Positions 1-18,235 of a DNA stretch of 20,100 nucleotides are shown piece by piece. The first letter of the stretch is position 1, and each line of letters begins with the position of its first letter. Origin of the DNA: a virus. Under the pieces are notes generated by a model. The model saw only the letters and a list, made by a program, of their open reading frames with translations. It was not told the origin of the DNA and did not search any database. Both the position numbers and the translations under genes were made by a program. Location: IMG/VR virus record IMGVR_UViG_3300013108_000701, positions 1-20,100 of that record. One strand, 5' to 3'.

Positions 1-3000
1 GAAATAACAGGTATGGAAGGATATCTGATGTGAGAATCAGGGAATGCAGAAGACGGAGGCATATATATAAGCCTCAAACCATATTCTACATTTTTGAAAA
101 AAGGCGGCGTAAGGGGAGATGGATCAAAATCACTTGGGCTCAAATGCGCGTCTTCTAAGTCGCCAGTCGATCCTCCCCACAGTGCGACAGTCATATCTAA
201 CAATTCCCTAAAAGCTTGCAGACTCAGCACTCCCTTCAAGTGAGGGGGTCGATCAATTATTTCTACTGGTGTCAGATTATATTCTTCTTCATCGGGAGCC
301 CAGTCCGTTATTTTTATAAACCGCTCTAAAAATAAGCCGCCACTTGCAAGGTCCTCGGGAGAGGTTGATCCCCTGGCTGAGCGTTGAAGGTCTATGAGTT
401 CTCGACGTAAGCTATCGAGTTTCGCATTGGTATCATTAATCGATTCCCTCTCTGTCCCAGCGACAGTGGTGTCATCGGGACTTTCAATAAGTCGAAGATA
501 CTGTTCTTGTCTCTCTATTTCCTCACGCAGTTCTTCTATTCTTGGCATCGCTTCATCTATTTTAAAATATTTATCGAAGTTTGAGCTTAGGTTAGCACGA
601 GTACGAAAGCGGGCAGCGTCATCTAAAATCTTATCATCCGCCCGATTGTACGCTACTCTGAGAAGGTTTCTCTCAAGAGCATATTCTACAACCGCTGCTT
701 GTGAATCATCGTTGCTGTCCCAATAACCTCGCTCAAGCAACATTTGCACAGCGGTAGAGAGCCTGAGCGCCTCAGCAAAGGGCGACCCAACAACGGTTGC
801 TCCAATAAGGGCTGATTCGGGTACAAGTGTCGGATCGGAAAGAAGTGTGTTCAAACCAGATATAATCTTTCTCCTAATATAATCCCTGTTGGCGTCCCAA
901 TTAAGTCGTGACAAACTATCATAGCCGCGAGAATGATAAAAGCCTGATTGTGTTTTATCATGAACAGGGACATCATATAAACTCAAATTATCTAGAAAGG
1001 CTCGTTGAACTTCTCGCATTGTATCAAACCTAATGATTTCGGAAACATGAGCGCGGATGCCACTAAGCTGTCTTTTGATCTCTGGAATGAAAAAATCCGC
1101 ACGCAAATCTTCTAGCATATCCCTAGTCAGATTTTGGCTTTCAACAACTCCGTCTTTCATAAAAATTTCAGATGCGGCAGTAACAAAGCGAGAATAATAA
1201 TCCGAATCCATACGAACCATCTCCTCGACCATTTTATCAAAATAGAATTCAGCTAACGAATCATCAGTGGAACCAGAGGATGATTCACTATAAATGGCAG
1301 AAAAGACAAAGAACCCTCTCATGAAATAATCAAAAGTATAAATGCGTATAGTTGTTTTAATAATGGATTCCAGCATTGTCTTATCAAAAGGAGAAAAAAG
1401 TTCATCAGGGTCAGTTGGAGGAGCAACCTCACAAAATCCAACCTTCGCTATATTCTTTGCTTCCTCTAGATTGAGAACATTATCTTTTTTACAAGACACA
1501 CTCGAAATGCACGAAAGGTCTAAATGCTCAATAAGAAGAGGAGTGTTTTGAAGCGCAAGGGAGCCTTCAGGGGGCGGTGAATTATAAGGCAGCTCTATCT
1601 TACCAAAAAGAGGGCTTTGTAAAATTTGCTGAGAAAGTGAAGAGAAAGCCTGGGTGGCTGAGTGTCCGTAAGCTCCGTGTGAGAAAAGGTTTGTGATGGC
1701 TTCGCGATCCGCATCCGCCTCTAAAGCTTGGTCAGAATTTATAGAGTTCATAAGAAGCTTGCTGAAAGAATATTGCTCTAAAGGAATAAGAGCGTCTTTC
1801 TCATCCAAATAATCAAGCGTCAGGATGTGCTCGTCTAAGTATTCTGCAATTGTATCAGATTCTTGAGGTATCAGTTCTTTGTGGAACAAAGTGTCTTCGC
1901 CTGATAAAATGAAGACTTTATACCGACGATCATTTTGAATTGAGGCAGGCTGCAATATATAACCCACAGAATAATCTTGTGCGGGGGCAGAATCCGAAAT
2001 TGACAAACCGCCACCTAGTTCTGTCTCGCTAGCAAAACCAGGGACAGATTCATAATGGGCTCTAATATTTATCATCGAGCCATACCCTTGGTTCCGGTAA
2101 TTATTGTAAGGAAGAGTGCCGCCCAATAAGTTTATAGTATCATAAAAGGAGGGAAGAGCCTGTTTCTCTATACCTTGGAGTTCACGCTCGCCAGAGTCAC
2201 CTGAAAACTTTTCCACACTCGACACCAGCGTAGGTCCATAGTCTTTTATATCATCGCTAAATGAGGAATATACTCCTGTAAACAAGTTATCCACTGTCTT
2301 TTCTAGCATATAATCAAAAGTGTGATGGGATGAAGGAACAATCTGCGAGCTGGGGTTCTGGCAAGAAAGGTCTTGTTGTGAAGAAATTCCATTAGCAAGC
2401 AAATCAGCTAGCCCTTGTGCGGTTTTTAGTTTTCTCTCTTTCTCTCTTTCAAGTTGCTGCTGAATCTCTTCTTCTGTAAGGACACATTTTTCTCTCAAGA
2501 GTTCTTGACGGAACTGACGTAAAGTGGAGTCTCCGCAAAAGTCGTTTATTCCTCCAGTATCAAATACTGATGTAATGTCGTTACAAAACGAAGCAGTGCC
2601 TAAAATTTCCCCGGTTGATTTAAAGAAATCTTTGGTTTGCTTGTTTAGATAACCCCTCCTGCGGAGATGAGTCGCTATAGGCTTGTGCTTGCGAGTCATT
2701 AGCGCAATTACCAAGTTTATAGTAGGAGTAGAAGCACTTCCCGTAAAAAGAGAACAAACCTCTTTAGGGGTCAAGAGATTAGAAACATCATCAAAGAAAG
2801 AAAACAAATCTAAACTTGAATCATCCATGCCCTGGCGGGCAAGTTCGTTTCTAACGCGCTCAACTTGAGAATCAGTAGGAACAACAGGTGAAGTGAGTGC
2901 AGCTTGGGTGTCGTCCAGTATATCACAAGATGCCATCACATTCTCTAGAATATTCTTTATACCATCTACCAGAACACTTGTGACAGCCTCTAAAATTGCA

Positions 3001-4823
3001 GCCGCAATACTGTCCACATAGTCTTCTAATAAGTCGTTAGTGGGAAGCTCGTCAGGAAAATCTAACGTAGGCACTGATGGCATTTGCGGTATCGCATCAA
3101 AAAAATCTTGATCTGGAAGGGGTATAGAACCAGCAGCTTCAGAGGCGGCTCCAACTAACTGCCTTCCTTTACTAAACCCTTCTCTAACAGTAGAGTCTAC
3201 TGCATTAGCAAATTCTTCATAATCAGGTACTTGCTTAGCAATACAATTAAGGGCTTCTGCCAGTAACCCATCCACACTCACCCGGTTCAACAACAGGTGA
3301 TATGATTCTTCGACACTGTTAATGCCGTTCAGAATATCAGACAGTCGGCTCTGAATCCCGCCAACCTCGTCCGAAATATTACCAACAATTCGCTGAGCTT
3401 CTTCTCTGAAAGAGGTGTTGTCAAGCACCCTGTTTTCTTCAATGGTGCGAGCGAGGGTTTTCACCGGAATCTGGTCTGCTTCAGAGCGCAAATTCCTGAT
3501 AGCAGTTTCATCTACGTTTTCACTCGCGGTGTCTTCTGAGGCTACTGCTTCGACGCTTGCAGCGGCGTCGAGAGAATAGGTCGCCATAAAATCTACCCAG
3601 CCAACTTCTTCCGCATTAATACGCGAAATAACCGGAGACAACATAACATAATTCATTACAGTGGGGGTAAAGGCTTCTGACTGAAAAGGTTGTAAATCAG
3701 TTTTAATGGGTCCTGATTCAATATTCACTAAAAACATCACTAAACGACGGTTCACATCCCAACCCAGTTCAATGCTGCCCTCTTGGGTAGGTTGGATATT
3801 GTGTTGACGCAAGATGGCAGTTACTTGGGTTGAAAAATCCCTTAACACGGTGGCGGACTCTTCTGGGGCAAAACCTCTTGTCTGCCCTTCAAAATTGTCA
3901 ACTTGCTGCTGATAGCCTCCTATAATCTGAGCGGTGCGATCGACAAAAGAAATCAGATCGCGAATCTCATACATTTTGTAAAATGCTACACCGCCATAAC
4001 CATAAAGCCCTCCGTCTTGAGACTCAACACTGGCGGCGGCGGCACCATTCTCAATAGAAGGGAGATATTTATGAGGAATCTGAACTAAGACTTTTAGAGC
4101 ACCGCCCGGTCTAGAAGACAAATTATAATCTGCTACCTGAAAAGAAATAAAATAATCCTTCAGTAGAGATAGGACAAAATCCTTATCATTTTTCTTACCT
4201 AAAGATTGTAAAATTAAAGTAGCCCCTCGAAATGTTGCATCAACCAGGCAGTCGGCAAGACCCTCAGTAGATGAGGATATTAAATCCGCCGAACCCTCCA
4301 TAACAATTTGGTGAGTCGCACTGGAAGCGTCAAAGTAAGCTGTATTGACTGCTTTCTGGAGCCATGGCGGGGACATTATGTTAGAATCAGCGTGCGAGCG
4401 AATGTCACTGCAATCTATAGAAAGGGATGGCAACTGACCGTCCATTTTGGTTATTTTAGTGTTCTCCACATACCCACGCTGAGAGCCTGTGATAATATGT
4501 GACCAGCCGCAGTTGTCCCCGGTGCCCTCGTTTATAACGATTAGCTCAGTGCCCTCAGGAACTTGAAGGAGGGACGCTGATGAAGTGTTTGGGGATGAAT
4601 ATACCGAAGCAGAAGAGGTGGAAATATGTGTAGAAGTGGCAGGACGCGGGTAGGGCATATCACCACTATATTCCCCTTTCCAGCGCAGCTCTTCTATCTC
4701 TCCGACTGTTAGAGAAGCTTCTGCTTCCGCACTACCGGAAAGACCCACACCGTCGCCAACCCCAACAAGCGAGGTTGTTAGCGCGTTGATCCTTGATCTA
4801 AACTCCCTCAAATCATCGCTCAT
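1..4823 (-). CDS. Giant phage structural protein (partial, C-terminus off window) with N-terminal SH3-like domain
   Basis: One uninterrupted reading frame starts at ATG 4823 and runs off the left edge, giving about 1607 visible residues without a stop. The start is supported by AGGA seven bases upstream and by a 9-nt gap after the previous gene. Residues about 72-126 look like a bacterial SH3 domain (short strands, VPEGTELIV, then CGWSHI and GYVE). The rest has no signal peptide or obvious membrane segment. It is rich in Asp, Glu and Ser, and residues about 1420-1480 have a charged heptad-like pattern suggesting a coiled coil. I recognise no enzyme motif. As the last visible gene of the hub/SGNH-M23 cluster it is most likely a large tail or baseplate component. 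It could also be an injected virion protein. The role is inferred from context only. Confidence 0.85.
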   Translation of the reverse strand, partial: MSDDLREFRSRINALTTSLVGVGDGVGLSGSAEAEASLTVGEIEELRWKGEYSGDMPYPRPATSTHISTSSASVYSSPNTSSASLLQVPEGTELIVINEGTGDNCGWSHIITGSQRGYVENTKITKMDGQLPSLSIDCSDIRSHADSNIMSPPWLQKAVNTAYFDASSATHQIVMEGSADLISSSTEGLADCLVDATFRGATLILQSLGKKNDKDFVLSLLKDYFISFQVADYNLSSRPGGALKVLVQIPHKYLPSIENGAAAASVESQDGGLYGYGGVAFYKMYEIRDLISFVDRTAQIIGGYQQQVDNFEGQTRGFAPEESATVLRDFSTQVTAILRQHNIQPTQEGSIELGWDVNRRLVMFLVNIESGPIKTDLQPFQSEAFTPTVMNYVMLSPVISRINAEEVGWVDFMATYSLDAAASVEAVASEDTASENVDETAIRNLRSEADQIPVKTLARTIEENRVLDNTSFREEAQRIVGNISDEVGGIQSRLSDILNGINSVEESYHLLLNRVSVDGLLAEALNCIAKQVPDYEEFANAVDSTVREGFSKGRQLVGAASEAAGSIPLPDQDFFDAIPQMPSVPTLDFPDELPTNDLLEDYVDSIAAAILEAVTSVLVDGIKNILENVMASCDILDDTQAALTSPVVPTDSQVERVRNELARQGMDDSSLDLFSFFDDVSNLLTPKEVCSLFTGSASTPTINLVIALMTRKHKPIATHLRRRGYLNKQTKDFFKSTGEILGTASFCNDITSVFDTGGINDFCGDSTLRQFRQELLREKCVLTEEEIQQQLEREKERKLKTAQGLADLLANGISSQQDLSCQNPSSQIVPSSHHTFDYMLEKTVDNLFTGVYSSFSDDIKDYGPTLVSSVEKFSGDSGERELQGIEKQALPSFYDTINLLGGTLPYNNYRNQGYGSMINIRAHYESVPGFASETELGGGLSISDSAPAQDYSVGYILQPASIQNDRRYKVFILSGEDTLFHKELIPQESDTIAEYLDEHILTLDYLDEKDALIPLEQYSFSKLLMNSINSDQALEADADREAITNLFSHGAYGHSATQAFSSLSQQILQSPLFGKIELPYNSPPPEGSLALQNTPLLIEHLDLSCISSVSCKKDNVLNLEEAKNIAKVGFCEVAPPTDPDELFSPFDKTMLESIIKTTIRIYTFDYFMRGFFVFSAIYSESSSGSTDDSLAEFYFDKMVEEMVRMDSDYYSRFVTAASEIFMKDGVVESQNLTRDMLEDLRADFFIPEIKRQLSGIRAHVSEIIRFDTMREVQRAFLDNLSLYDVPVHDKTQSGFYHSRGYDSLSRLNWDANRDYIRRKIISGLNTLLSDPTLVPESALIGATVVGSPFAEALRLSTAVQMLLERGYWDSNDDSQAAVVEYALERNLLRVAYNRADDKILDDAARFRTRANLSSNFDKYFKIDEAMPRIEELREEIERQEQYLRLIESPDDTTVAGTERESINDTNAKLDSLRRELIDLQRSARGSTSPEDLASGGLFLERFIKITDWAPDEEEYNLTPVEIIDRPPHLKGVLSLQAFRELLDMTVALWGGSTGDLEDAHLSPSDFDPSPLTPPFFKNVEYGLRLIYMPPSSAFPDSHIRYPSIPVI

Positions 4824-4832
4824 GTAATTTTC

Positions 4833-5762
4833 CTAATTGACATTATTATATCGACTGTTTATATAATTGTTGCCTGACTGTTGTAAATAGTTCGCCTTGA
4901 AAGATACGAGGTTTGCCTTGTGAGACATTAGCGAAGTTTGCACTTGTGATAAGTGGCTAGAAACTGTTCTCATTCCAGATGGAACGACACTCGGGGAAGG
5001 TGATGTCGGTGCGCCAAAAAAAGGAGAGTTGTGGAAATGGTGAGTAAGGTCTCTATTAAAATTCATCTGAATCATGAGCATGTTATGAACGATGCCATTT
5101 AATTTATCTAAGTGGTGGACAATCCTATCCAAAGCATCCACTAAATTCTCTCCTTTGGGCATAGGTTGTAAGCCACTGTCCTCATTCCCAGCAATAATAT
5201 CGACACCATAAACCTCTTGCGCTTCACCCCCCTGTGAATTTCTCATGTCGGTCCTTGTAACAAGCTTGATCCCTTCTCTTGCGATTACGCGCACTTGATC
5301 TGCCTTAATGCCAATGCCAGAACGGGCAGTAGAGGTGCCAACTGTGCCCGAAGCTAATGAAAAGTTTTCATCTATATCGGTCTTTTGGCTTATATAAATG
5401 CGGGCGGCATCGGTCCTAAAGTTAGGATCAACGCGGAGAGGCTCACCGTCCTCAGTAGTTTCACGGGGAGAATATGACATTCGCCCCACCACCATATCAA
5501 TCATAGATGCCTGGGTGTCTCCTCTCCCTCCATATCCGCTGAGGCGTGAAGCATTACGATCCCTTCCTAAAACGATAAAAGAGTTGTTTTCTCCCTGTAT
5601 TGTTGTTTCACATGGGGCTTCATTAAACGCAGGAATAGGTTCCCGTAGCGTAGAACACGCAGTTCCGTTGCGCGAGGCAGCTACCGAACGAGATTGGCGC
5701 TGAAGCATGTCTCTTGCTTCGTTGCTTAAATTATCAATATCATAGGCTCTTCTTCTGGTCAT
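4833..5762 (-). CDS. Putative phage baseplate/tail structural protein, 309 aa
   Basis: Unrecognised protein lying between the SGNH-M23 fusion and the giant gene, with gaps of 17 and 9 nt, so probably co-translated with them. The N-terminus is Arg-rich (MTRRRAYDID). The middle, residues about 110-205, contains short alternating hydrophobic strands such as GIKADQVRVIAREGIKLV, suggesting a beta-rich, possibly spike-like or trimeric fold. Residues about 215-240 (DALDRIVHHLDKLNGIVHNM) look like an amphipathic helix, and the C-terminus is Ser/Asn/Gln-rich and low in complexity. There is no signal peptide or membrane segment. The start at 5762 has an AGGA only about 11 bases upstream, a weak site, but no better start is seen. 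A virion role is inferred from position. Confidence 0.8.
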   Translation of the reverse strand: MTRRRAYDIDNLSNEARDMLQRQSRSVAASRNGTACSTLREPIPAFNEAPCETTIQGENNSFIVLGRDRNASRLSGYGGRGDTQASMIDMVVGRMSYSPRETTEDGEPLRVDPNFRTDAARIYISQKTDIDENFSLASGTVGTSTARSGIGIKADQVRVIAREGIKLVTRTDMRNSQGGEAQEVYGVDIIAGNEDSGLQPMPKGENLVDALDRIVHHLDKLNGIVHNMLMIQMNFNRDLTHHFHNSPFFGAPTSPSPSVVPSGMRTVSSHLSQVQTSLMSHKANLVSFKANYLQQSGNNYINSRYNNVN

Positions 5763-5779
5763 AACATTATTTTTCCTAT

Positions 5780-7405
5780 TTAGGTGCTGGACGCTGCTTG
5801 AGCTATCTCATTTAGGGTTTTCACTCCAGCCCTTATCCGTCGAGGTCCATCAAACCCTTGTCGTCGGAGCTGTGCAAGTTTTGCTGCGGTTTCCTCCACG
5901 GGCTCACTAAGCAATTCCAATATAGGATAGGGGTTTACACGCTGAAATTCGGATGACTCACCTTGGCGTACTTTCCATTCAATATGCACATGCTGTGCGC
6001 CATTACCATCCCTATATGCGCTGCCCGTATTGCCCTGAAGTCCCAATTGTTGCCCTCGGCTTACTATTTGCCCTATCGTTACGTCAACCTGAGAGAGATG
6101 GGCAAAATAAGCCCTATTATTACCAGTGCCATTGGTATCTATTAGTACAACATAATTACCCCCAGCGCCGCCGCCTGCGCCCTGCTGACCGCTTCTTACC
6201 CCAGTCACCTTAGCATTTTCAAATGGCGAACGTACAGGTGCGTTTCTTGGTCCAAACACGTCTATGCCCGTGTGACCCTGTGGACGGTTAGGACCCCAGG
6301 AGCGCCCATAGCTATTTTTAAATGCCGAACGCCCGTCAACAGGAAACGCAACCCCTGGTCCACTGCTGGGGATGGGTTCTCCAGTGGGATCTCCAAGTCG
6401 AGAAGAAACCGGAGCCGCTGCATTTGTTGTGCTCCCACAGCGGGTGTGCCCTAGAGCAATATTAGGAGAGGAAGAGCGGGAAGCTGCCGAAGAAGCGGCA
6501 GATGTTGCGCCTGCACCCGTACCAGCAGCAACATTTGCACTCGCAGTGTTTTGAGCTTTTTCTAAAGCCCAAGATGAAATTCTATCTACTGTAGTTCGCC
6601 CATTGGTACCACTATGAATATGCAACCCATCACCTAAATTTGGAAAATAAATCCCCGGCAATTGTTCCACGGCACCAGGAAGGGAACGGCTTGGAATTTC
6701 TCGCACATCTAAATAAAGCACGCCAGTATTCGCTAAAGTTCTTTTCAATCTATTGTTATACTCCTCACGCCTCTGAGCGGCTACCATCGGGGTTCCGTCT
6801 ACATTAGCTGTCGCTCCAGATAAATATAATTCTGCATTCCCCCCAATAGCTGGGCGACTTAACACTCTTCGCGATGTGATTCTAGTTGAAGGAGCAGGAC
6901 CAATCCAGATAAGTTTACTGCCAAACAGAGAAGCTAAACGAGAAACAGACCCTCCAGTATTAAGATAAAACCTGTTCCATCTACCAGGAGCATTTGTATC
7001 ATTTCCCCCTGCGAACATAAAAACAATATCATATTCCGATGTGGGAAAAGGGTTTGCAGATGAAGGGTTCCAGTGGGTTGCCCAATTGCTGCGAGGTCTT
7101 CTCCACCGAGGGTCATTATTTAATGACGTGCTCTCTCCCTTGAAATCTCCTCGACCACCATTTGCAGTTGCCATTTCTATAAGAAACTCGGTAGTCATAG
7201 AGACATTGGTACTCACATGCACGTTATTGGCGTTTAGTCCAGCGGCGATAAGCTTCTCTCTGATTTTACTGCCTGTGCCACGAGGACCACCAGTTTGGCT
7301 GTCACCAAATATTAGAACTTTGAGAGAACCTTGATTCTCTGCTGTAATTGATAGGACCGGATTGCCGCTAGAAGAAGATTCAACATTTGAACTGAGTTCT
7401 GTCAT
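5780..7405 (-). CDS. SGNH-hydrolase / M23 (LytM-type) peptidase fusion, virion-associated envelope-degrading enzyme
   Basis: 541 aa with two enzymatic domains. Residues about 28-285 are an SGNH/GDSL-type hydrolase: block I GDS with Ser36, block III GGND with Asn135, and block V DGLHIH with Asp259 and His262 (or His264). A linker of about 60 residues rich in Ala, Ser and Gly follows. Residues about 350-495 are a peptidase M23 domain: HTGID (His378, Asp382) and HVHIEW (His472, His474) supply the expected zinc ligands, with AYFAHLS between them. M23 enzymes cut peptidoglycan cross-bridges; SGNH enzymes remove acyl or acetyl esters from glycans or lipids. There is no signal peptide, so delivery by the virion is likely. 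The ATG shares one base with the stop of the hub gene (TAATG), implying coupled translation. Domain calls are firm; the SGNH substrate is unknown. Confidence 0.9.
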   Translation of the reverse strand: MTELSSNVESSSSGNPVLSITAENQGSLKVLIFGDSQTGGPRGTGSKIREKLIAAGLNANNVHVSTNVSMTTEFLIEMATANGGRGDFKGESTSLNNDPRWRRPRSNWATHWNPSSANPFPTSEYDIVFMFAGGNDTNAPGRWNRFYLNTGGSVSRLASLFGSKLIWIGPAPSTRITSRRVLSRPAIGGNAELYLSGATANVDGTPMVAAQRREEYNNRLKRTLANTGVLYLDVREIPSRSLPGAVEQLPGIYFPNLGDGLHIHSGTNGRTTVDRISSWALEKAQNTASANVAAGTGAGATSAASSAASRSSSPNIALGHTRCGSTTNAAAPVSSRLGDPTGEPIPSSGPGVAFPVDGRSAFKNSYGRSWGPNRPQGHTGIDVFGPRNAPVRSPFENAKVTGVRSGQQGAGGGAGGNYVVLIDTNGTGNNRAYFAHLSQVDVTIGQIVSRGQQLGLQGNTGSAYRDGNGAQHVHIEWKVRQGESSEFQRVNPYPILELLSEPVEETAAKLAQLRRQGFDGPRRIRAGVKTLNEIAQAASST

Positions 7406-9320: not shown

Positions 9321-9725
9321 CTAGCCTCCGTTTTGGTCATTAAGTAAATCAAAAATTTCCTCTTTCTCTGTAGAGGATAAATTACTATTCTTGCTCTCTT
9401 TCTTTTGAAGTAAAGAAGTAACTTTTACAAGCTGCTCATTAGACCTCTGTAGTGTTTCAACATATTTAGAAGCAATAAGCCCCAATCTCTCGTGAGTGTG
9501 GGTCCCTTCTCCTTTCATGTGAATCATAAGTTCGGTAAGGAGAGTAGAAGTAACTGCTCGATCGGCGCGTAGATTATTGACAGCCTCGGCAATCAACTCT
9601 TCACCACTAGTTTCTTTAAGAGGTGCTTTATCAGTCGAGGACTTCTTGGATGAGCGCGAAACTGTCTTTTTGGGTGCCGCTCTCTTTCTTGTTGTCTTTT
9701 TTTTCTTTGGCGATGTGTTTGACAT
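9321..9725 (-). CDS. Lys-rich N-terminus, helical protein overlapping the sigma factor gene
   Basis: 134 aa, not recognised as a named family. Residues 1-35 are Lys/Arg/Ser/Thr-rich and probably disordered, possibly nucleic-acid-binding. Residues about 42-115 look helical, and the C-terminus is acidic and hydrophobic (EEIFDLLND). Its first 95 bases overlap the 3' end of the sigma factor gene in another frame. The next in-frame Met is near residue 67, so 9725 is the only ATG giving most of the protein. AAGGG lies very close to that ATG and a GGAG sits about 15 bases upstream, so initiation may depend on coupling to sigma translation. Its position invites comparison with late-transcription coactivators, but no sequence match is claimed. 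Confidence 0.72.
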   Translation of the reverse strand: MSNTSPKKKKTTRKRAAPKKTVSRSSKKSSTDKAPLKETSGEELIAEAVNNLRADRAVTSTLLTELMIHMKGEGTHTHERLGLIASKYVETLQRSNEQLVKVTSLLQKKESKNSNLSSTEKEEIFDLLNDQNGG

Positions 9726-10467
9726 TTCCCTTATCCCACTCCGATTTGAAAGTCCTGTATTTAGCTCTAAGTTTATTAAGGTTATTGACCACTTGCTTGG
9801 TGTTAAGTCCGGTCAATTCCCTTAGATACAGATAAATAGCTTTCTTGTTGAAAATTTCAATGTCGTCAGGATTGTCTAAAAGTATCTTAACTGCCTTGTA
9901 TACTTTCTCTTCAGTCGCCTTCATTTGAACCGATTGCCAGGAGTTTATCTCCTGGGAAAGAGCTTGCCAAAATTCCTTCTTTTCAAGCTCCTCAATAAAT
10001 GTGTTATCTGTGGTGATATATTTTTCTTCAACAGCGGCAGTAATGTCGTCGATAAGAATTTCCCGGCGGCGGCGGTTCTTGTTCTTCTTCACCTCGTGGA
10101 TAAACCAATTCTTCGTTATTACGCTATAATAGGAAAATGCCTTATACCCTTTATCTTTATCAAACTTATCTAAAATCGTAGTAAGCCAAACTTTACACTC
10201 GCTGCGTAAGTCATCAATATTGGGCAAATTAGTAAATTTATATGTATACACAATCTTGTCCACCATCTCGCTAAATGCTGGTTGGATATAGGTGCGATAC
10301 AATTCTTCTCTTTCATATTGATCGGTGCTGTTCGCATACTTGATTATTGCGTCCTCGTGGACTTGTGTAAAATAATATTTCTTTGTGCCCCGGCGGCGGC
10401 GCTTTCTTTTTTTAGGAGCTGGGGGTGGCTCATTCGTTGTGTCTTCGTTGGTGGTTTCATCAGTCAT
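9631..10467 (-). CDS. Phage RNA polymerase sigma factor, T4 gp55-like (late transcription)
   Basis: 278 aa. After a basic, Pro-rich N-terminus (residues 1-30), residues about 55-130 resemble sigma region 2: IDDLRSECKVWLTTILDKFDKDKGYKAF followed by SYYSVITKNWFIHEVKKNK, the layout of gp55-type sigma factors (Leu/Trp helix, F-D-xx-KG, aromatic helix, basic tail). No clear region 4 is visible, as in gp55. The C-terminus is Lys-rich and ends in a short hydrophobic/acidic stretch (FALIQEVLD), which could be a sliding-clamp contact like that of gp55; that is inference. The start overlaps the membrane-protein gene by 8 nt and has AGAAGG eight bases upstream. It likely directs host RNA polymerase to late phage promoters. 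Confidence 0.75.
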   Translation of the reverse strand: MTDETTNEDTTNEPPPAPKKRKRRRRGTKKYYFTQVHEDAIIKYANSTDQYEREELYRTYIQPAFSEMVDKIVYTYKFTNLPNIDDLRSECKVWLTTILDKFDKDKGYKAFSYYSVITKNWFIHEVKKNKNRRRREILIDDITAAVEEKYITTDNTFIEELEKKEFWQALSQEINSWQSVQMKATEEKVYKAVKILLDNPDDIEIFNKKAIYLYLRELTGLNTKQVVNNLNKLRAKYRTFKSEWDKGNVKHIAKEKKDNKKESGTQKDSFALIQEVLD

Positions 10468-14893: not shown

Positions 14894-15577
14894 TCAGACC
14901 AAAAAATCATTAATCTGTTTAATTTTTTTATACAATACCGGACTCACTTCTTTCAGTGTATCTTCTTCTCCTACAAAGTACTGTTCTATGCCTTCGGCAA
15001 AATATTCAGCTAACGAGGTTGCTGAGTAAGGAGTAGCAAAAAGCCCCAGCGTGAGCGAGACCAAGGTAGGATAACCTACATCAAACCAAAGAAATTCATC
15101 TACTTCTTTATCATATTCAGGGTTCATTAATTTAGAAATATCAAACCCAATAGAAGAACCCGCTTGTGAAAGGTGAGATGCTAGGCGCTTTCGTTTTCCT
15201 AAAAATTCATTCTCCATCTTACCATCATAGTATAGCTCAACTTGAGAGTGTTGTTCAATAGAATGTGCCATTTCGTGAATTATATTTTTCACGAAGTCCT
15301 CTGAAGTGGGGTGAGCGTTGGTAGTATAGATTGCCCCGTCTAAATATACGGAGGACACACCACGTTCCTCTAATTCAGGAAACTGACCAATATAGATCGC
15401 ATCTATGTTGTAGAACATACCTTCAGGGACTATGTCTTGAATCTCCTCCAGAGCACTCGCCAAATCTAGCTCAGCGTCCATATGATCTTTTACCAGAACC
15501 ATGATTCGCCCATGAAGATTATATTCGCGGCGCGTGGAAGCAGCTTCGGAGAGCTGTGTTTTGATATAAGACGTCAT
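14894..15577 (-). CDS. Zinc metallopeptidase, lethal-factor (M34/ATLF)-like gluzincin, 227 aa
   Basis: Residues 98-110 contain HEMAHSIEQH, an HExxH zinc site (His101, Glu102, His105). Downstream, SLAEYFAEGIEQYF (188-201) supplies the third ligand, Glu191, in the AE(Y/F)FAE arrangement seen in the catalytic domain of anthrax lethal factor and its relatives. The distance of about 85 residues between the motifs and the full-length soluble fold suggest an active enzyme. There is no signal peptide. The start overlaps the previous gene by 4 nt (ATGA). It could process a virion or host protein, or it may be a structural relic; the substrate is unknown. The motif assignment is firm, the family placement moderate. 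Confidence 0.82.
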   Translation of the reverse strand: MTSYIKTQLSEAASTRREYNLHGRIMVLVKDHMDAELDLASALEEIQDIVPEGMFYNIDAIYIGQFPELEERGVSSVYLDGAIYTTNAHPTSEDFVKNIIHEMAHSIEQHSQVELYYDGKMENEFLGKRKRLASHLSQAGSSIGFDISKLMNPEYDKEVDEFLWFDVGYPTLVSLTLGLFATPYSATSLAEYFAEGIEQYFVGEEDTLKEVSPVLYKKIKQINDFLV

Positions 15578-15912
15578 TCAGAAGTGTCGTCCTTTAGAGC
15601 GGCAGCGTTCACCTCTTCTTGAATTGCTTGACGACCTGCCTCTACGTCAGCAATTCCTTGGCGATATCCGCGCAGCCAATTTTCCTCCGCCAAAGCAAGA
15701 ACAAAATCAGGGAACTCATCAGCTAAAACATCCACAATCATTGACACTGTCACTTCCCCGTTCTTCGGCTGAAGTTTGTCACCAACATAATTTAGCAACC
15801 ATTCCTGAACCGGCGTATCTCCCTCTGGAGTTTGGGTTAGGACTGGATTTTCATCCTCATTAAAATTCGAAGCCTTAGGTAATTGTGGGTCAATAGTCGT
15901 ATCTGTAGACAT
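15574..15912 (-). CDS. Small acidic protein, first gene of the long minus-strand operon
   Basis: 112 aa from ATG 15912, chosen because AGGAGG lies just upstream; a longer frame from 15963 runs over the promoter. Residues 1-30 are acidic and disordered. The rest appears helical: VQEWLLNYVGDKL, VSMIVDVLADEFPDFVLALAEENWLRGYRQG and a polar tail. No family is recognised. Its position directly after a strong promoter and before the metallopeptidase suggests early or high expression. Confidence 0.82.
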   Translation of the reverse strand: MSTDTTIDPQLPKASNFNEDENPVLTQTPEGDTPVQEWLLNYVGDKLQPKNGEVTVSMIVDVLADEFPDFVLALAEENWLRGYRQGIADVEAGRQAIQEEVNAAALKDDTSE

Positions 15913-15934
15913 GGTCTTTCCTCCTGTATTACAC

Positions 15935-15963
15935 AGTATAACGACATTATGACATAAAGTCAA
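15935..15963 (-). promoter_or_regulatory. Sigma70-type promoter of the long operon, with odd palindrome in the spacer
   Basis: On the minus strand, -35 TTGACT (15958-15963) and -10 TATACT (15935-15940) are separated by exactly 17 bases. The start point is expected near 15928, about 16 nt before ATG 15912. The spacer begins with TTATG-T-CATAA (15947-15957), a perfect inverted repeat around one base that could be a repressor site. No terminator is seen between phoH and this promoter, so read-through may add to expression. Confidence 0.8.
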
Positions 15964-15981
15964 CAGGTTTGTTAACTTTTT

Positions 15982-17304
15982 TTATAATTTGTTAGACGCC
16001 AAAGTTGCAATTGGGGACCTCTCACCCTTTGTAAGAGTGATATGACCCGTCAAATGCGAGTCCTTTAGACGCTCGACGGCATGGGCAAGCCCATTAGTTG
16101 TTTCATTAATGTAGATATTGTCAATTTGTTCAATATCGCCAATTAATATAAGCTTGGTGCCCTCCCCCACGCGAGTAATAATAGTTTTAATCTCGTGTTG
16201 TGTAAGGTTCTGAGCTTCGTCAATAATAATAAAACTGTTGCTGATGGAGCGTCCACGGATGTAGCTCAACGCTTCTACTTCGATGGTGCCTTTCTCCATG
16301 TATAATTCAAGAGCCAGTTTATCATTACCAAACAAGGTTCGTAGATTATCTTGGATAGGCTTCAACCATGGTAACATTTTCTCTTCCATGGTGCCCGGTA
16401 GAAAGCCGATATCCTTACCTAAGGATTCGACGGGGCGAGAAATAATCATCTTAGTATAAATGGCTGTTGATTTTTCCATAATCTGTTGTAGTCCGGCGGC
16501 GATGGCGCACAGTGTTTTACCCGTCCCGGCTTTACCAACTAAAGTAACTAATGAAATTGTAGGATCGAGCAACAAGTCCATGGAGAGTGTTTGTTCGCGG
16601 TTCCGTGGATCAATGCCCCATACATTATTTTTTTGTATGACAGGCTCTAGAGGCTTATCTTCAGCTATGTATCTTGCCAGTGCCGTTTGTTTTGGATTTC
16701 CTTCACACTGGAGCATAACAAACTGGTTTGGGAATAAATCAACCGTAGGGGATTCCAAATATACATTGTTTTCTTGGTAGAACTCATTTATCTGGGTTGT
16801 GGTGGTTGTGTGTGTGTAAAATCCGCTATACAGGTCTTCAGAGGAAACCACCGCTTGATCTAATACATAATCTTCAGTGGGGAGCCCAATTGCGTCACAC
16901 TTTACACGCATGTTTATATCGCGAGTAACAACCACAACAGTATCACCAATTTGTTTTCTAGCGCCAAGAGCGGTGCAAATGATTTGGTTGTCAGGGTCCG
17001 TCAACAACCATTCATTAGGAATTTCTCGGTCTTTGATCTCCATACAAGAGAGAGTGCGGATACTCCCCTTGTCAGGACCTAGCGATACTCCTTTATGGAG
17101 GTTTCCTGCTTGGCGTAATTCGTCGAGAATGCGAATAGTTTGCCGGGCGTTGTACCCTACCGCATCTTGCCTCTTTTTGTGCTTATCAATCTCTTCTAAG
17201 ACCTTAAGGGGGACGATAATATCGTTCTTGCCAAAAGAGTGTAAAGACTCATAATTTGTCAAATACACATTAGTATCCAACACATAAGACTTCTTGCTAG
17301 TCAC
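15982..17304 (-). CDS. phoH: PIN-PhoH fusion ATPase (PhoH2 type)
   Basis: 440 aa. Residues 5-150 are a PIN nuclease domain with acidic residues at Asp10 (VLDTN), Glu38, Asp104/Asp106 (TDPDNQ) and Asp129 (TRDINMR). Residues about 230-440 are a PhoH P-loop domain: Walker A GKAGTGKT (257-264), Walker B FIIIDEAQN (358-366) and the ISRPVE and GDIEQID segments typical of PhoH. PIN-PhoH proteins are thought to be RNA-processing NTPase/nucleases, and PhoH is very common in marine phages, where its role is unsettled. ATG 17304 has GAGG seven bases upstream. It has its own promoter, divergent from the serine-protease gene. All key residues are present, so it is probably active. Confidence 0.96.
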   Translation of the reverse strand: MTSKKSYVLDTNVYLTNYESLHSFGKNDIIVPLKVLEEIDKHKKRQDAVGYNARQTIRILDELRQAGNLHKGVSLGPDKGSIRTLSCMEIKDREIPNEWLLTDPDNQIICTALGARKQIGDTVVVVTRDINMRVKCDAIGLPTEDYVLDQAVVSSEDLYSGFYTHTTTTTQINEFYQENNVYLESPTVDLFPNQFVMLQCEGNPKQTALARYIAEDKPLEPVIQKNNVWGIDPRNREQTLSMDLLLDPTISLVTLVGKAGTGKTLCAIAAGLQQIMEKSTAIYTKMIISRPVESLGKDIGFLPGTMEEKMLPWLKPIQDNLRTLFGNDKLALELYMEKGTIEVEALSYIRGRSISNSFIIIDEAQNLTQHEIKTIITRVGEGTKLILIGDIEQIDNIYINETTNGLAHAVERLKDSHLTGHITLTKGERSPIATLASNKL

Positions 17305-17401: not shown

Positions 17402-18235
17402 TTGTCCCACCTTCTACTTTATCCTCCATTATTCGCTTTATCCCTCATGTTCGGGTGTTGTTCGTCTTGGTCGCTTCCTGCGGACCAAAGTCACACTCCA
17501 CAACCGGCAACGCCTTCAATAGACTTAGAAACATTACGACATTCATTTCTCAAAGTAGAGCGGCGCATTTTTGTTAGACTGTGCGGACTGGTTGCAAGCG
17601 GCGAAATTGAATGTTTGGACACAACTCCCAGTAGGGCTACTGCATCATCCATTGTATACAGTCACGAAAATGACAGAACTCTAATTTTGACTGCCGGTCA
17701 CACTTGCGAGCCTGTAACTCAGCTTACCATATTTCATTATATTTATAACGTCCCTCAATCTGACGCTGTAGCGCGGCAGTTGGCTCGATTCGTTGATATT
17801 CGCACTATGGAAAAAGTCACCCAATTTGAATTACGAAACGTCAGAGGTGAGACATTCATTGACGACGTTGAAGTTGTAGCTGTTGATACGCCATCCGATC
17901 TATGTGTCCTATCAATGCCTGAAGCAGAACACATTAACGCAGTCCCGATAGCTGAGAGTGATCCCCGAGTTGGTTCGCCCATTTGGAATATTGCCGCACC
18001 CTATGGCATTTTCAACACTGGTATGGTGCCTATCTTAAGTGGTATATGGTGCGGACGAACCCCAAGCGGACAGTCTTTTCTCTGTGATCTTCCGGCATCG
18101 CCGGGAAGTTCGGGTTCCGCTGTGTTCAATACTGAAGGAGAGATAGTCTCAATCGTGCTCGCTACTAACATGCAATTTCATCACGCATCTTTTGGCGCGA
18201 CGCTCGAACAAATTCGAGACATCATTGGAGAATAA
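17402..18235 (+). CDS. Exported trypsin-like serine protease, possible lipoprotein
   Basis: 277 aa. The catalytic triad of the chymotrypsin fold is visible: His100 in LTAGHTC, Asp166 in TPSDLCVL and Ser237 in GSSGSAVF. Residues 1-19 form a hydrophobic signal segment ending in FGCC, a poor lipobox; it has no basic residues, which is unusual. The start is TTG 17402: AAAGGAGAG ends five bases before it, and the only ATG nearby (17385) is out of frame. The next in-frame Met is residue 16 in the middle of the signal. It would act outside the cytoplasm, perhaps on host envelope or competing-phage proteins. It is the first plus-strand gene and is closed by a terminator, so it looks like a self-contained cargo gene. 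Confidence 0.87.
   Translation: MSHLLLYPPLFALSLMFGCCSSWSLPADQSHTPQPATPSIDLETLRHSFLKVERRIFVRLCGLVASGEIECLDTTPSRATASSIVYSHENDRTLILTAGHTCEPVTQLTIFHYIYNVPQSDAVARQLARFVDIRTMEKVTQFELRNVRGETFIDDVEVVAVDTPSDLCVLSMPEAEHINAVPIAESDPRVGSPIWNIAAPYGIFNTGMVPILSGIWCGRTPSGQSFLCDLPASPGSSGSAVFNTEGEIVSIVLATNMQFHHASFGATLEQIRDIIGE

Follow-up and report, generated by a model that had tools for sequence, protein, structure and literature searches.

The window, the whole 20,100-nt stretch analysed here, is a 20.1-kb viral contig from an uncultured, probably marine phage. Its minus strand carries an open reading frame for 541 aa with an ATG start and no internal stops, and the product had been described, from the DNA letters alone, as an SGNH hydrolase fused to an M23 peptidase. 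A Pfam search placed both domains in this one protein. Peptidase_M23 matched residues 377-480 with an E value of 5e-13 and 49.5 bits, against a cut-off of 28.7. Lipase_GDSL_2 matched residues 33-237 with an E value of 1.6e-6 and 29.2 bits, just under the curated cut-off of 32.9 bits; this cut-off was reached by the relatives G018 (L144) and G011 (L149) in a six-frame search. The features of the gene and its neighbours are listed in Table 1.

Table 1. Features of the SGNH-M23 gene and the surrounding genes of the window
Feature	Description	Position	Strand	Evidence
SGNH-M23 protein	SGNH hydrolase and M23 peptidase fusion, 541 aa	5780..7405	-	ORF, Pfam, homologues
SGNH domain	residues ~28-285; Ser36, Asn135, Asp259, His262	6551..7324	-	Pfam, six-member alignment A4, AF2
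Linker	Ser/Ala-rich, residues ~286-350	6356..6550	-	sequence; pLDDT <40
M23 peptidase domain	residues ~362-500; His378, Asp382, His436, His472, His474	5906..6322	-	Pfam, PDB matches
Hub-type protein	OB-like N-domain (~50-175) and GH24 lysozyme (~303-487), 631 aa	7405..9300	-	Pfam, PHROG, AF2
Conserved protein	309 aa, next gene after SGNH-M23	4833..5762	-	relatives
Large protein	1607 aa (cut), SH3_3-like stretch 70-121	3..4823	-	Pfam E 1.4e-5, just sub-cut-off
Late-sigma-factor-like protein	start of syntenic block	9631..10467	-	phrog_234 E 2.2e-5; same order in relatives

The catalytic residues named in the original prediction were all present. In the SGNH domain, S36 lies in GDSQ, N135 in GGND, and D259 and H262 in DGLH. 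An alignment of six divergent SGNH domains (A4) indicated that D35-S36, G133-G134-N135-D136 and D259-G260-x-H262 are invariant. These segments correspond to block I (nucleophile S36 in IFGDSQ), block III (GxND, as GGND at 133-136) and block V (DxxH, as D259-G-L-H262, with D, G and H invariant) of the SGNH/GDSL superfamily. G45 and G56, both invariant in the same alignment, are candidates for the oxyanion-hole glycine of block II, the exact position of which needs a good structure. Since the catalytic blocks are invariant, the idea of an SGNH pseudo-domain was dropped.

The M23 domain carries the HxxxD and HxH zinc ligands of its family (H378 and D382 in HTGID, H472 and H474 in HVH), as well as the further conserved catalytic histidine H436 (in YFAHLS), which the prediction had overlooked. 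The M23 rows could not be aligned jointly with the SGNH rows. Lysostaphin and LytM were among the best PDB matches of this domain, and the endopeptidases lysostaphin, LytM, ShyA and MepM ranked near the top of its sequence matches in PDB and NCBIfam. All their zinc and catalytic motif residues are shared by the window domain; however, it is distant from them, far under the NCBIfam equivalog cut-offs, and is fused to an SGNH domain. No known cell-wall-binding domain was found in the protein, and no signal peptide was visible at its N-terminal sequence, the latter in agreement with the prediction. The relative L012 has a stretch similar to the linker (SPNVSL..C..RL) after its own SGNH domain, just ahead of the contig end.

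As a test of the flavodoxin-like alpha/beta/alpha fold of the SGNH superfamily, AF2 modelling with 7 sequences gave an SGNH core with strands alternating with helices (pLDDT ~60-84). In the AF2 model of the full protein, the mean pLDDT was 47; the SGNH core was acceptable, and the linker and M23 domain were unmodelled. The viral fold library gave no usable match. A Foldseek search with the SGNH model returned the SGNH protein TesA (1ivn) among its matches (prob 0.87, TMt 0.58), none of which reached E 0.001, and a PDB profile search returned TesA at E 0.49. These weak sequence and fold matches raise the possibility that the SGNH domain is a TesA-like lipase or lysophospholipase that would weaken a membrane, outer or inner, as the phage penetrates the cell. 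We consider this unlikely: the matches are too weak to assign a substrate, other SGNH esterases scored equal to or better than TesA, and the pairing with muramidases in relatives, described below, would be left unexplained. No Ape, PatB or OatA structure was among the PDB profile matches of the domain.

A second contig of the same phage, IMGVR_UViG_3300009130_001720, carries the same gene in a context that is longer by ~9 kb, and SGNH homologues that are 35-37% identical lie at the same locus in L012 and L017. An ORF artefact was therefore dropped as an explanation of the fusion, and the two Pfam matches, the SGNH homologues of these two other phages and the invariant catalytic blocks together exclude a chance match. 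When the window was compared with this second contig, its near twin (L005), 10 differences were found over 17,124 shared bases, and all of them lie within 226 bp (6746-6971) of SGNH coding sequence; the probability of such clustering by chance is ~1e-16. Six of the affected codons are silent, and three neighbouring ones change the residue (S178A, R179Q and R180S; SRR to AQS); the catalytic residues are untouched. Either recombination brought the tract in from a co-occurring allele, or the assembly switched from one strain to another.

Probable baseplate context of the SGNH-M23 gene

Immediately upstream lies the hub gene, the stop codon of which overlaps the SGNH-M23 start codon (TAATG). The prediction had placed a lysozyme hub next door, and this protein indeed matched Phage_lysozyme at 352-450 (1.5e-6) and the phrog_7 endolysin family at 303-487, with E320/D329/T355 as its GH24-type residues. 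AF2 modelled its N-domain as an OB-like barrel with a core pLDDT of up to ~90. Foldseek matched the barrel to ribosomal S12 OB proteins and to baseplate or injection-system chains of P1, the Algoriphagus eCIS, A-1(L) and E217, all weakly (E >0.001).

We gathered 80 related contigs through the PhoH protein encoded in the window, and more through the 309-aa protein. The relatives share a conserved gene order: the sigma-like gene, a 134-aa gene, the hub, an extra gene (here SGNH-M23), the 309-aa gene and the large gene. The 309-aa protein had neither a Pfam nor a PHROG match. It has relatives at the same place that are 46-62% identical, it is present in 37 of 39 related records, and it is probably a central-spike or hub partner. 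One contig found with its profile sits in a MAG labelled Actinomycetes; read by eye, it is a fragment of a phage whose hub is SLT-like, too weak a basis for naming a host. In the relative G003, the conserved row runs directly into GPW_gp25 (2.4e-14), and the gene at the place of the large gene precedes gp25, so the large protein is a probable baseplate protein.

Among cultured phages, Flavobacterium phage immuto (Immutovirus) and Microcystis phage Mel-JY01 encode a distant sigma-like homologue a few genes upstream of gp25. The conserved gene order, the gp25 gene of G003 and the position of this homologue near gp25 in immuto and Mel-JY01 indicate that the locus is most likely the baseplate locus of a contractile-tailed phage. 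HMM and hhalign comparisons of the hub N-domain and the 309-aa protein with the hub proteins of Immutovirus, Mel-JY01 and LMM01 revealed no homology; the link to these phages consists of the sigma-like gene and gp25 only.

Wall enzymes and SGNH domains in related phages

Across 50+ related uncultured phages, the locus is a modular wall-enzyme cassette, newly described here, in which the OB-like domain is constant and the enzyme behind it is exchanged. The hub N-domain is followed by GH24 in the window, M23 in L012, L162, L164 and L195, VanY/M15 in L147, L148, L151, L158, L167 and L168, and Amidase_2 in L060, L066, L158, L159, L165, L166 and L167. Other records carry an N-acetylmuramidase (PF11860; L144 and L161), SLT (L145, L150 and L156), GH19 (L154), M74 (L170) or VanY with or without Amidase_2 (L141 and L142) in this position. 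Some of these matches (SLT, M74) are slightly below the Pfam cut-off, and the M15-like calls in L076, L029 and L099 have even less support. Two or three tandem hub paralogues are present in many related genomes. The locus is a natural catalogue of the wall-enzyme combinations that would be mounted on phage tail tips.

In L157, one tandem hub paralogue (4068-5918) has a HINT/intein-like domain at its end (Intein_splicing 1.7e-6, PT-HINT 2e-6), which is unusual in a baseplate gene. The C-terminal part of the L017 hub (15263-16750), where a wall enzyme was expected, matched no family; a SleB-like assignment was dropped after Pfam, PHROG, NCBIfam and PDB searches all gave no match. The ~1330-aa hub genes of L141 (1875-5876) and L142 (1868-5845) encode VanY, with Amidase_2 in L141, and a GxSxG alpha/beta-hydrolase-like stretch, perhaps another pairing of an esterase with a wall hydrolase. 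The esterase was kept only as a lead, as a GHSNGG motif was seen and a database match was absent.

SGNH domains recur at the locus in several arrangements: an OB-muramidase-SGNH chain of 679 aa (L144); OB-SGNH followed by OB-phrog_90 endolysin (L149); OB-SLT, OB-SGNH and OB-phrog_90 (L156); OB-SGNH with an unmatched domain (L160); and three tandem genes for OB-M23, an OB-phrog_90 endolysin-like protein and OB-SGNH (L195). By sequence, the last comes close to the three activities predicted for the window, spread over three genes and with the phrog_90 endolysin-like protein replacing GH24. The L160 hub gene (3430-5955) also encodes a coiled coil, and its C-terminal domain of ~320 aa had no match in Pfam, PHROGs, NCBIfam or PDB. 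Between groups, the SGNH sequences are ~20-25% alike where alignable, with L144, L149 and L195 mutually closer; this low likeness suggests that SGNH was acquired several separate times. The locus supplies at least five different architectures of SGNH plus wall hydrolase, a basis for direct in vitro tests of the coupling.

Among 58 related records, about 7 of the 10 non-redundant SGNH matches fell inside the locus. Against a binomial expectation taken from the rough share of a 6-kb locus in a 77-kb mean record, the probability of this enrichment is ~2e-6, or ~1e-4 when only five independent gains are counted. Counting phrog_90 as glycan-cutting, which is an assumption, a glycan-cutting enzyme occurred in 5 of 6 cases with SGNH and in 4 of 18 without (Fisher p 0.015). 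Within the best-sampled subclade, the trend was 4/4 versus 3/7 and was not significant (p 0.19), and we regard the co-occurrence as suggestive only. Together with the recurrence of SGNH at the locus, it lends indirect support to the order of events in the original prediction, deacetylation before cutting.

Candidate role of the SGNH-M23 protein and known counterparts

The complete catalytic sets, the invariant SGNH blocks, the conserved order with gp25, the OB-like hub and the SGNH recurrence are consistent with a two-domain virion-associated tail-tip lysin, in which the SGNH domain would deacetylate glycan, the neighbouring lysozyme would cut the strands and the M23 domain would cut the cross-links; we put the chances of this reading at about even. 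From gene order only, the protein is most likely located in the virion at the tail tip. The enzymatic activity, substrate and order of action that we infer are as follows. The tail tip would first pass the outer surface, and the wall enzymes would then act. The SGNH domain may strip acyl groups, most likely O-acetyl, from the glycan of the wall, which would allow the GH24 lysozyme in the neighbouring hub protein to cut the deacetylated strands. With the M23 domain cutting peptide cross-links, this joint action would perforate the wall locally and let the tube through. Lysozyme is commonly blocked by peptidoglycan O-acetylation, and our best guess for the SGNH function, judged from sequence, is that the domain deacetylates peptidoglycan before the muramidase acts. 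The window protein would be one member of the cassette, which combines a constant OB-like hub domain and accessory genes with different wall enzymes.

Several observations count against this lysin reading. Hubs with muramidase, GH19 or SLT yet without SGNH occur in L145, L150, L154 and L161; in L012, whose hub has M23, the contig ends without a visible muramidase; the co-occurrence of SGNH with glycan-cutting enzymes loses significance inside one subclade; and the OB-like domain by which its counterparts are tethered is missing from the window protein. This missing tether, the placement in the virion from genes alone and the presence of M23 in some endolysins (phrog_3578) would fit a lysis-stage, endolysin-type enzyme or a late secreted helper outside the virion. 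Such a role seems quite improbable, because the start codon overlaps the hub stop within the baseplate cluster, relatives fuse the same activities to the hub domain, and a signal peptide is absent.

The SGNH domain might alternatively deacetylate a surface polysaccharide (O-antigen, capsule or exopolysaccharide), with M23 opening the wall afterwards, so that the two domains would act on different layers in sequence. Most phage SGNH domains described so far deacetylate polysaccharides as parts of tail fibres or spikes (for example PMC9569702, PMC8471582). The window domain has the Ser-Asn-Asp/His blocks in common with these SGNH (GDSL) enzymes, and the fact that the window and its near twin vary only within SGNH might suit a surface-facing, host-matched enzyme. 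However, the known deacetylases sit in receptor-binding fibres, whereas the window gene is embedded among hub and wall-hydrolase genes, flanked by the hub gene and the gene for its conserved partner. The protein shows no evident segment for receptor binding or trimerisation, and relatives carry SGNH behind the hub OB-like domain, in L144 in one chain with a muramidase, which points to a wall-crossing device. The surface role is possible but rather doubtful.

The original prediction knew of no phage enzyme with this architecture. This stood for the full fusion: among 50,697 phage records, no match spanned 80% of the protein, all 18 matches were confined to the M23 part, the SGNH part alone gave nothing significant, and none of the cultured relatives in this set carried the SGNH-M23 protein. 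When the full protein or the SGNH alignment was scanned against viral and bacterial contigs, the matches were confined to the near-identical contig and two relatives. None of 84,980 species genomes of bacteria and archaea matched these queries, and hence no host clue was obtained.

SGNH on a phage tail hub is, by itself, not new, having been described in staphylococcal Tal. In phi11 gp44 and 80alpha gp59, a gp27-like hub domain precedes a C-terminal SGNH domain, the activity of which was described as untested (PMC4876445, PMC7048315), and a review lists phi11 gp44 as an 'endopeptidase and SGNH hydrolase' virion-associated lysin (PMC5380687). As a tail-tip hub protein with SGNH and a proposed role in cell-wall degradation (PMC4876445, PMC7048315, PMC5380687), Tal is the closest precedent for the window protein. 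In contrast to Tal, which belongs to siphoviruses of a Gram-positive host and for which no M23 match is reported, the window protein has an N-terminal SGNH (from residue ~28) followed by M23; the gp27-like part is absent, and Pfam found no domain ahead of SGNH. It carries the sequence motifs of both enzyme families but not the Tal architecture, and it belongs to an unusually plastic cassette that is most likely mounted at the tail tip.

The closest M23-bearing counterpart is gp095 of Microcystis phage Ma-LMM01 (Fukuivirus), in which the hub gene gp094 likewise adjoins an M23-bearing partner. Gp094 has Phage_base_V (OB, sub-cut-off) and a weak amidase-like part, and gp095 is two-part, with M23 as its C-terminal half. 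Its N-terminal half is transglycosylase/lysozyme-like (weak) rather than SGNH, and its identity to the window protein is ~28%, in the M23 domain only.

No characterised phage esterase that reverses peptidoglycan O-acetylation was found in the literature searched. We propose, tentatively and with less than even confidence, that this large lineage of uncultured phages possesses a plug-in tail-tip kit trading lysozyme-type, endopeptidase and SGNH esterase domains between the constant OB-like hub domain and accessory proteins, and that its SGNH domain is a peptidoglycan O-acetylesterase cancelling lysozyme resistance at entry.

Other genes in the window

A 227-aa protein encoded at 14894-15577 (-) contains an HEMAH zinc-peptidase motif, with sub-cut-off matches to ATLF (1.9e-5) and Peptidase_M90 (7e-5), and has homologues at the same place in relatives. 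A trypsin-like serine protease (Trypsin_2, 3e-13) is encoded at 17402-18235 (+), on the strand opposite to the late genes; its N-terminus resembles that of a lipoprotein, and relatives have an ORF in the corresponding position.
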